Shown one piece after another: positions 3,928 to 6,982 of a stretch of DNA of 34,319 nt (positions are counted from its first letter, which is position 1; every line of letters starts with the position of its first letter). This stretch comes from an uncultured Eubacteriales bacterium (GTDB lineage Bacteria > Bacillota > Clostridia > UBA1381 > UBA9506): NCBI GenBank assembly GCA_949299615.1, contig CASGBM010000006.1, forward strand, positions 1 through 34,319, read 5' to 3'. The notes under the pieces are model-generated. The model did not search any database. It was not told the DNA's origin and worked only from the letters and a program-made list of their open reading frames with translations. The position numbers were made by a program, and so were the translations under genes.

Positions 3928-5262
3928 TCATAATTTTTTACCTTTTTTAGGAAAAATATAATTTTTAGCGAACCCTCCCGCAATGATGCAGACAATAATT
4001 TCTGTTACGGTAAAAGACAGCCATATTCCATTCATTTGCAGCAGCGCAGATAAAAGCAGGGCGCAGGGGAGGATAATTAGAAAACCGCGCAGCATAGAAA
4101 GCAGAAACGCGGGTATAGGTCTTGCCATTGCGCTTAGCAGGGCGGCTGTAATAATGTTAAAGCCGGCAAATAAAAAACCCGCAAAATAAATTTTCAAGCC
4201 ATTGACGGCCATTTCCTGTAAAAGTGCATTGTTCCCGCGGTTAAACCATGCACATAAATTTTGCGCATAGATCCAGGCAAAGGAATAAACCACCAAAGAC
4301 AGGGCGCACGAGACAATCAGAGCAAGCCGGTAAACTTGATTGGCATATTCGCTGTTCCCTTTGCCAAAATTAGAACTTATAATTGGCTGGATCCCCTGAC
4401 CAATCCCTGTCATAATAGCAAGGACAACCAAAGAGAGGTTGGCAATAATGCTGTATGCGGCAACGGCCGTGTTTCCTTCCAATTTTAAGAGAATCATATT
4501 GAACACGATAATGACGATTCCGGAGGATAGCTCCGTAACGAGAGAAGAAAGCCCCAGAGAGGATATGTCTGTTAAGGCAGAAAAAGACAGTTTTGTTTTT
4601 ACCGGTTTAAAATGATTTTTTCTTTGGAAAAATAAAACACTAAGCGTGCCTATACTGATGACGGGCGCAAGCCCGGTTGCCAAGGCAGCTCCGAACATTC
4701 CCATGTTTGCAGGGAAAATAAAAAGGTAATCGAGAAGAATGTTGGAAAAGCTTCCCAAAAGCATTGCCGCCATAGCCAGCCTCGGATATCCGTCATTTCG
4801 GACAAAGCAGAGCAGGACGTTGTTTAGCAGAAAAAAAGGCGCGTATAAAAGTATGGTTTTCAAATAAACAGTTGTCATAGAAACTGCCGCGCCTTCTGCG
4901 CCGAGCAGGCGGCTGATCGGTTCGGCGAAAAAGAGCCCCAGCAGTACAAAAATAGCAGAAATGAACAGGGCGAGCGCTGCCGTCAAGGTAAAAATTTGAT
5001 TCGCATTTTGCGTCTGGTTTTGGCTTTTTAATATGGAATAGCGGGTTGCGCCGCCCATGCCTGCCATGAGCCCCAGACCATGAATAAAGCTGTATACTGG
5101 GACTGCCAGGTTTAATGCTGTTAAACCGTCGGCGCCAAGCCCTTGTGCAATAAAAAAAGTATCTGCCAAAATATAGCAGGACAATCCCATCATGCCTAAA
5201 ACGCTGAAAGAGACATAACGAAAAAAAGTTTTAAAAATAGGTGCTTGTTGCCTAGTTTCCAT
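3928..5262 (-). CDS. MATE family multidrug/cation antiporter
   Basis: Integral membrane exporter of the MATE family, which pumps cationic drugs or metabolites in exchange for Na+ or H+. 444 residues with about 12 hydrophobic segments in two related halves. Family-like stretches are GMMGLSCYILADTFFIAQGLG (residues about 18-38; positions 5150-5210) and ALNLAVPVYSFIHGLGLMAG just after, with an equivalent Gln/Pro element IGQGIQPIISSNFGKG in the second half. AAGGAGG lies 13 nt before the ATG. It has a consensus promoter and, unusually, a strong intrinsic terminator hairpin directly before the RBS, which suggests transcription attenuation. Substrate cannot be told from sequence. Confidence 0.92.
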   Translation of the reverse strand: METRQQAPIFKTFFRYVSFSVLGMMGLSCYILADTFFIAQGLGADGLTALNLAVPVYSFIHGLGLMAGMGGATRYSILKSQNQTQNANQIFTLTAALALFISAIFVLLGLFFAEPISRLLGAEGAAVSMTTVYLKTILLYAPFFLLNNVLLCFVRNDGYPRLAMAAMLLGSFSNILLDYLFIFPANMGMFGAALATGLAPVISIGTLSVLFFQRKNHFKPVKTKLSFSALTDISSLGLSSLVTELSSGIVIIVFNMILLKLEGNTAVAAYSIIANLSLVVLAIMTGIGQGIQPIISSNFGKGNSEYANQVYRLALIVSCALSLVVYSFAWIYAQNLCAWFNRGNNALLQEMAVNGLKIYFAGFLFAGFNIITAALLSAMARPIPAFLLSMLRGFLIILPCALLLSALLQMNGIWLSFTVTEIIVCIIAGGFAKNYIFPKKGKKL

Positions 5263-5280
5263 AGACGCCCCGTTTCCTCC

Positions 5281-5341
5281 TTAAAAAAATACGTCTGAAT
5301 TTTCATGCCTTCTAAGGCCTAACGGCATGAAATTCAAACGT
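5281..5341 (-). terminator. Leader terminator / attenuator of the MATE gene
   Basis: On the minus strand a stem of about 18 bp (arms 5292-5309 and 5324-5340, one bulge and one G-U pair) is followed by seven T (5283-5289) and then at once by the AAGGAGG of the MATE gene. A 15-residue open frame (5281-5328, no obvious SD) starts in the loop-side arm and stops at the TAA overlapping the SD. A terminator between a perfect promoter and its own gene is the hallmark of riboswitch or leader-peptide attenuation. A second small hairpin (CTTTGCC/GGTAAAG) lies upstream in the leader. No known riboswitch consensus recognised. Confidence 0.75.
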
Positions 5342-5411
5342 TTCGTTAACTTTACCCGGCGGCAAAGCGGATATTATACTTACAAAAAATGCAAGCGGTT
5401 GTTTTAAAAAC

Positions 5412-5440
5412 ATTATATCAAAGGATAACAGGAGTGTCAA
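5412..5440 (-). promoter_or_regulatory. Consensus sigma-A promoter of the MATE gene
   Basis: Minus-strand TTGACA, 17-bp spacer ending TTTGA, then TATAAT: full consensus plus extended -10. It gives a leader of about 140 nt before the MATE start. Confidence 0.92.
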
Positions 5441-5534: not shown

Positions 5535-6080
5535 TTACTGCTCCATATGTCTGCCGAGGAAACCTGCGGCTGACTGGGCAAGTTTTTCTTCGATCTCTCC
5601 CATCTTCGGGCTGCTTTCATTGCTGAAAAAGACAACAGAGCCAATGGTGTCCCCTTCTGCGATGATGGGTACCACAACGCCGGCGGTATATTTTTCATTT
5701 CCCTCAATGACACTGACTTTTTTGGATTCATTTGGGCGGCAAACAAACGTTGATTTTTCTTCCATAAATTGTTCCAGTTCGGTGCTGATTTTCTTTTCAC
5801 TCAGTTCACGCTTTGGCACGCCGGAAACAGCAATGACATTGTCTTTATCGGTGATACAGGTTGGATGGCCGCTGGTTTTTGACAGAGTTTCTGCGTATTC
5901 ACTCGCAAAATCACCCAGCTCGCCGATGGGTGAGTATTTTTTGAAAATTACTTCGCCGTCGCGGTCAGTGTAGATTTCTAGCGGGTCGCCTTCACGGATC
6001 CGCATGGTACGCCGGATTTCTTTCGGGATGACCACACGGCCGAGGTCGTCGATTCTTCTTACGATTCCTGTCGCTTTCAT
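5535..6080 (-). CDS. spoVT: Stage V sporulation protein T, AbrB-family regulator
   Basis: Forespore transcription factor that tunes sigma-G-dependent genes in endospore formers. 181 residues. The N-terminal swapped-hairpin AbrB domain (residues 1-50) reads GIVRRIDDLGRVVIPKEIRR. A C-terminal GAF-like domain (about 55-180) includes VVVPIIAEGDTIGSVVFFS. I chose the ATG at 6078-6080, where AGGAGG lies 9-14 nt upstream; the frame stays open further upstream, but that extension overlaps the promoter-like region. TATAAT on the minus strand near 6145 is a possible -10. No clear sigma-G motif was seen. It is divergent from the small RHH gene. Confidence 0.95.
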   Translation of the reverse strand: MKATGIVRRIDDLGRVVIPKEIRRTMRIREGDPLEIYTDRDGEVIFKKYSPIGELGDFASEYAETLSKTSGHPTCITDKDNVIAVSGVPKRELSEKKISTELEQFMEEKSTFVCRPNESKKVSVIEGNEKYTAGVVVPIIAEGDTIGSVVFFSNESSPKMGEIEEKLAQSAAGFLGRHMEQ

Positions 6081-6208
6081 ATTCAAAATTCCTCCTGTTA
6101 TTAAAATCAAGCTTACAGGAATATTATTTACAAGGTGTGCAATTATATCCATATTTTTAAAAATTTGCGTGTTTCTTTGCGAAAAATGCGGCGTCATGAT
6201 TGCGTCGT

Positions 6209-6533: not shown

Positions 6534-6643
6534 GATTTTCAATGATATCCATAAATTTATGCAGTATTTGGGGTAAGGTTATAAAAATTAATTTAAAATT
6601 ATTTGTTTGGAATTTTTTCTCATTTTCGTTTTGCATAAACTCT

Positions 6644-6896
6644 GTAGGGTGCGGCCCCTGGACGCACCGTGAGTTTTGCACAAATCTGCGGATATGTACA
6701 ACGGGACGTCTATGAGCCGTCCCCTACGGCATACCCGTTTGATTGTGCAAAATTAATTTCATTTGCACATACGATTCGGTTTCGCACTAATCTATAAATT
6801 GGCACGAACTCCGTAGGGTGCGGCCCCCGGACGCACCGTGAGTTTTGCACAAAGCCGCGGATATGTACAGCGGGACGTCGAGGCGCCGTCCCCTAC
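6644..6896. repeat. REP/BIME-like locus I: two tandem composites
   Basis: Four 26-nt units: A-type at 6644-6669 (+), B-type at 6702-6727 (-), A at 6813-6838 (+), B at 6871-6896 (-). Each inverted A/B pair spans 84 bp with GTAG at both outer 5' ends; the two composites are 169 bp apart and share their 32-bp centres. They fill the convergent gap between the RHH gene and PFOR. This 511-bp gap (6534-7044) otherwise holds only the PFOR terminator. Confidence 0.9.
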
Positions 6897-6982
6897 GGCA
6901 TATCCATTTTATTTGTGTGAATTTTTTTGAAAAAGCGCCGTTCCCTTGCGGGTATGCTATGGTTTGGTTGAGTGCAGGATAA

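Follow-up and report, generated by a model that had tools for sequence, protein, structure and literature searches.

The described element closest to the one studied here is the guanidine-IV riboswitch (GGAM-1), a class first known as the mepA motif because it was found associated with MATE genes (PMC12186494; papers are cited here from excerpts). Its members have conserved nucleotides, a potential covarying pseudoknot and a terminator within the structure, and they exert ON control over sugE, MATE and PnuC genes with a dissociation constant (KD) of ~0.2 mM (PMC7736828). The kissing pairs of the C. botulinum riboswitch are A29-U72 and C30-G71, with a conserved G77, and the double mutant A29G-U72C restored the kissing loop (PMC11611296); the L. 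lactis U67 position is 97% conserved (PMC7736828). It has been proposed that ligand-stabilised kissing stretches the linker between the hairpins and blocks the lower pairs of the terminator (PMC7736828, PMC9788692). Here we analyzed a stretch of 34,319 nucleotides from an uncultured Eubacteriales bacterium (contig CASGBM010000006.1, assembly GCA_949299615.1; called the window throughout), in which a MATE exporter gene on the minus strand is preceded by a leader of ~144 nt. We consider it highly probable that this leader belongs to the guanidine-IV riboswitches and works as an ON switch for transcription of the exporter gene. It would very probably be an ordinary member of the described class, whose MATE-linked subgroup is already in print, and not a new drug-sensing attenuator.

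Anatomy of the MATE leader

The predicted fold of the leader, 3.0 standard deviations below that of shuffled sequences, contains two hairpins, P1 and P2, with loops L1 and L2 (Table 1). The traits of the guanidine-IV class are present: two hairpins with a loop-loop pseudoknot backed by covariation, a 3' hairpin that is a Rho-independent terminator (18 pairs, U7), and a position ahead of MATE, one of the target genes SugE, MATE and PnuC. The putative kissing interaction would join GCC (5360-5358) of L1 to GGC (5319-5317) of L2, which are able to pair, and the kissing bases lie 43 nt apart, matching the 29-to-72 distance in the C. botulinum riboswitch. Additionally, both essential guanines of loop 2 occur at the published 6-nt spacing, G5318 being the equivalent of L. 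lactis G66 / C. botulinum G71 and G5312 that of G72 / G77. The equivalent of U67 / U72 is C in the window and is matched by a compensating G in L1; among 83 aligned elements C is found at this position in 22, always together with G.

Several points weigh against this assignment. The second kissing base is C in the window, whereas U67 of L. lactis is 97% conserved, although the C is compensated by the G of P1. L. lactis G62 stands 4 nt before G66, whereas the window has a G 5 nt before and a U at the 4-nt place. This G (G5323) would be the equivalent of G62, and several MATE-linked relatives (L161, L180, L191 and L202) are one U shorter; their GUAGG would agree with the spacing in L. lactis. 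The class identity rests on positions, spacings and gene contexts described in papers, and the closely related Gd4v variant is likewise found before MATE genes (PMC9788692). Lastly, Rfam 15 gave 0 matches in the window at the gathering score, and relaxing the cut-off to E 10 brought up only two matches in the leader, both at chance level and no riboswitch among them. A mir-3179 match (E 2.3) was rejected as a chance stem.

A preliminary description of this DNA, made from its letters, had reported a TTGACA-N17-TATAAT promoter with an extended -10, an 18-bp terminator with U7 directly before the Shine-Dalgarno (SD) sequence, and a 15-codon frame ending at the SD. All of this held when the letters were re-read: the promoter matches consensus at 12/12 positions (minus strand, 5440-5412), the stem has 18 pairs with one bulge and its U7 (5289-5283) abuts the SD, and the frame runs from an ATG at 5328 to a TAA whose last base is 5281, sharing two bases with the SD. 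A simple terminator scan with a loop limit of 8 did not list P2, whose loop is 14 nt. The same description recognised no known riboswitch, a view corrected by the published guanidine-IV anatomy, and it missed the P1 hairpin (5367-5350) and the two kissing loops. A leader that had looked like a novel switch can now, with high probability, be named. Its likely ligand is guanidine, which the preliminary description had suggested for testing.

Table 1. Coordinates of the leader elements, the MATE gene and the upstream gene in the window
Feature	Position	Strand	Detail	Basis
Promoter TTGACA, spacer 17 nt, TG-extended TATAAT	5412..5440	-	-35 TTGACA 5440-5435; -10 TATAAT 5417-5412; TG one base ahead of -10	promoter scan, letters re-read
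Hairpin P1, CTTTGCC / GGTAAAG	5350..5367	-	loop L1 GCCG 5360-5357, with putative 5' half of kissing interaction	fold, covariation
Linker, P1 to complete terminator stem	5342..5349	-	8 nt	letters re-read
Hairpin P2, intrinsic terminator stem	5291..5341	-	18 pairs, one bulge; arms 5341-5324 and 5309-5291, one bulged A; then A, then U7	fold, letters re-read
Terminator loop L2, GUUAGGCCUUAGAA	5310..5323	-	14 nt, with putative 3' half of kissing interaction	alignment, letters re-read
U7 tract of terminator	5283..5289	-		letters re-read
15-codon frame	5281..5328	-	without SD, not conserved, judged chance	comparison of 102 elements
SD AAGGAGG of MATE gene	5276..5282	-	abuts U run	letters re-read
MATE family exporter	3928..5262	-	444 aa; start ATG 5262-5260, spacer 13 nt after SD	Pfam MatE; NCBIfam matE subfamily at cut-off
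spoVT, upstream of the leader	5535..6086	-

Conservation and covariation of the motif

To follow the leader in relatives, we used seven MATE homologues of 40-53% identity, found in a search of 61 genomes (the window's own and those of relatives). GCCRCCGGG and UUAGGYCNNNGAAG are common to five leaders (one loop base of L006 deviates), while the flanking stems differ. A model built from these leaders (R1; the window, L003, L006, the first copy of L008, and L009) matched in 73/391 sampled genomes of the class and in 21/398 genomes of a phylum sample, the two samples overlapping in some genomes. The motif is therefore widespread, and the leader is conserved in relatives, a property on which the preliminary description had made its proposal depend. 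Rfam 15 flagged the motif at no locus tested, so such leaders may go unnamed where annotation depends on Rfam.

Alignment of 83 elements gave paired bases in 93.3% of helix cells. The covariation score was 0.522, compared with 0.204 in shuffles (reached by 0/500), sliding the partner strand destroyed the covariation, and P1 and P2 both covary; the cells count sequences and not events, and fitting the alignment to the R1 structure biases the figures in its favour. The kissing pair lies outside the structure used for alignment, and at its variable position we counted A-U in 58 elements, G-C in 22, G-U in 3 and an unpaired combination in 0. The hairpin could in principle serve only to end transcription, such as read-through from spoVT, without control by a ligand: the terminator is real and spoVT does lie upstream on the same strand. 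However, the hairpin sits downstream of its own strong promoter, and simple termination gives no reason for a conserved loop to covary, in many families, with another loop ~43 nt away, which makes this explanation very unlikely.

The terminator character of the element is general, with a T run of at least 5 following 94 of 102 elements (one spurious match, L113:1820-1892, having been removed from this set). The same 102 elements bear on the 15-codon frame. The preliminary description had offered either drug-induced attenuation, in which a ribosome stalling on this frame would prevent the terminator, or a ligand riboswitch. The riboswitch acting through the terminator fits our results; the stalling does not. 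The frame does exist and ends at the SD, but an ATG occurs at its position in only 4/102 elements, in each case lacking an SD, and frame length varies (15, 20, 23 and 27 codons), so we judged it a chance reading. A leader-peptide attenuator, for which a conserved translatable frame would be expected, was rejected. The codons of the frame fall in the kissing loop and stem, where conservation is explained by RNA structure and where loops and helices are kept as RNA. We give attenuation by stalling next to no probability.

For a semi-independent test of the guanidine-IV-like leader we used a second model, R2, built from 37 elements (31 of 45 called PnuC-linked, plus 6 SMR-linked) and containing no MATE-linked leader; its members were gathered with R1, itself built with the window leader. 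In the window's genome R2 had a single significant match, the leader itself (55.3 bits, E 4.8e-10); the next match was at E 8.1. No further copy of the leader was found in its own genome, and no DNA match to it was found among phage records. Of six plasmid MATE records (L130-L135), L130 and L131 matched R1 clearly and L132 weakly (E 0.014), while L133-L135 had no R1 match at E up to 1; the only other match given by R2 in these records was at chance level (L135, E 5.4). The motif was not found at plasmid-borne SugE genes of Paraclostridium (two) and Enterococcus (one).

Promoter, proposed switching and downstream genes

The promoter of the leader, a sigma-70 type site, is the one exact TTGACA-N16-18-TATAAT in the window, against a mean of 0.01 in 100 first-order Markov resamples. 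We surveyed promoters in 169 family elements, which exclude four doubtful matches, elements with less than 100 nt upstream, and identical sequences. A site scoring at least 10/12 lies within 110 nt upstream in 85/169 elements and a 12/12 site in 20/169, and the mean best score was 9.5 versus 7.5 in Markov resamples. Since strong promoters are common in the family, a strong promoter followed by a strong terminator is the ordinary design of this motif family. The distance from the -10 to the aligned core is 42 nt in the window; it spans 6 to 58 nt across the 85 sites and is shorter at most of them. A small additional hairpin is predicted between the two.

The antitermination proposed for guanidine-IV members can be laid out on these elements; guanidine binding, the ON direction and kissing-loop antitermination come from published work on other members, and the elements, conservation, covariation and gene associations from this analysis. 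RNA polymerase would start at the strong promoter and transcribe P1, followed by the upper portion of P2. With no ligand, the 18-pair stem would close, the hairpins would be only 8 nt apart and transcription would stop at U7. With guanidinium bound, GCC of the P1 loop would kiss GGC of the P2 loop around the ligand, and the stretched linker would block the lower terminator pairs so that polymerase reads through; the exporter would then be made and remove the compound. The linker is 20 nt when P2 is limited to its upper six pairs and shortens to 8 nt once the terminator stem is complete, which fits the published proposal. We infer that the window RNA binds guanidine and that its MATE protein exports it.

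Genes behind the motif include the kinds described for the class. The first gene, chosen by a simple script that may have misassigned single cases, is PnuC-like in 43, MATE in 22, Nim-like in 7 and SMR in 4 of the 83 elements; 5 stand alone and 2 have no open reading frame. Individual assignments checked as examples were confirmed. The phylum set again has MATE and PnuC, with further SMR (two), Nim-like (four) and radical-SAM (two) genes. In 80 named MATE relatives, taken as best tblastn scores with motif-linked MATE proteins as query and hence biased to the subfamily (some of these genomes were also in the earlier samples), the motif lies upstream on the same strand in 72/80 at E <=0.05 and in 75/80 at E <=1, and was found upstream in none of the remaining 5/80.

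The motif is not always adjacent to MATE. A PNPOx/Nim-like flavoprotein gene comes first in L004, L005, L007, L056, L089, L093 and L105, and also in L117, L118, L120 and L128; MATE follows the Nim-like gene at least in L004, L005 and L007, where this gene intervenes between motif and MATE. The order is MATE, then a PNPOx/Nim-like gene, in the Monoglobus plasmid locus L130. A Nim-like example scored below the curated NCBIfam cut-offs. Behind the motif in L121 and L122 is a radical-SAM protein gene, a class that we did not find named for guanidine-IV in the literature excerpts.

At two loci the motif occurs twice. In L007 the second copy lies at ~1415-1490, between the Nim-like gene and MATE in the same operon, and was unmatched by R1 or R2. 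When folded, its U run stands behind a different hairpin (GGCCCAUG/CAUGGGCC) built from the L2 bases themselves, so this copy could be a conventional platform with mutually exclusive terminator and aptamer. In L008 (genome G004) tandem copies lie upstream of MATE; the shorter second copy adjoins the SD and has no U run, and may act in translational control.

Outside the leader and its genes, we noticed by eye an imperfect direct intergenic repeat in two copies, at 6640-6725 and 6812-6905 of the window (TAGGGTGCGGCCCC.GGACGCACCGTGAGTTTTGCACAAA ... CGTCCCCTACGGCAT).

Comparison with Gd4v, guanidine-I and guanidine-IV

The kissing pair varies with the downstream gene: it is A-U in 39/43 PnuC-linked elements and mostly G-C before MATE, where the 76 rows of named MATE relatives comprise 56 G-C, 12 A-U and 8 that could not be parsed; lineage effects are not separated in these counts. 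The MATE/Nim-linked branch, with its mostly G-C kissing, might sense another cation or drug exported by the MATE pump in place of free guanidine, as a second specificity variant beside Gd4v. Against this, G-C also occurs in four of the seven SugE-linked elements (L046, L083, L100, L101, L110, L125 and L102, the last placed only by the resemblance of its leader to that of L100), and we see only a slight chance of such a separate specificity.

Gd4v itself is nearly identical to guanidine-IV in sequence and structure, is enriched in gut bacteria and, like the motif here, precedes MATE genes (PMC9788692). A Gd4v leader would be the same two-hairpin ON switch with a possibly guanidine-like, nitrogen-rich ligand. 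Two features set it apart: D2, an additional hairpin carried by the terminator hairpin, and a non-G at D1. D1 belongs to the loop positions altered by mutation in 2020 (G66, U67, G72, G62) and is always G before sugE genes (PMC9788692). Among these positions, G is invariant in the seven SugE-linked elements only at the equivalents of G66 and G72, and the Gd4v mutants are apparently at the G66 and U67 equivalents (PMC9788692); by elimination from this text we infer that D1 is the G72 equivalent, G5312 in the window. This position is G in the window and in 82/83 elements, as in guanidine-IV, and the predicted 14-nt L2 of the window has no hairpin. Additionally, the excerpt of PMC9788692 states that Gd4v never precedes SugE, whereas our motif does, and no Gd4v-type transaminase was recognised downstream of motif elements, though not all genes there were identified. 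We therefore think a small chance at most attaches to a Gd4v identity for this leader.

Guanidine-I (Rfam RF00442) has another structure and serves sugE genes of related Clostridia, such as the Paraclostridium bifermentans plasmid locus L217; SugE genes thus appear to be served by either this class or the motif described here. No guanidine-I match was found in the window or its genome, and no SMR/SugE gene was found in that genome, which leaves the MATE gene as its plausible guanidine exporter. A generic 'multidrug' pump would in this way gain a testable candidate substrate, guanidinium.

With the Gd4v variant, the window leader shares a nearly identical two-hairpin architecture and MATE genes among the targets (PMC9788692), and differs in the absence of the L2 hairpin, the G at the inferred D1 and the occurrence of its motif before SugE genes. 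From the guanidine-IV riboswitches described in the cited excerpts it differs in a kissing pair that is G-C in place of the A-U of C. botulinum, which equals the A29G-U72C mutant, and in L2, where one more nt precedes the kissing bases than expected from the numbering in L. lactis. With that class it shares the two hairpins, the loop-loop pseudoknot, the terminator as 3' hairpin, the loop nucleotides at published spacings and the MATE, PnuC and SugE genes (PMC7736828, PMC11611296).
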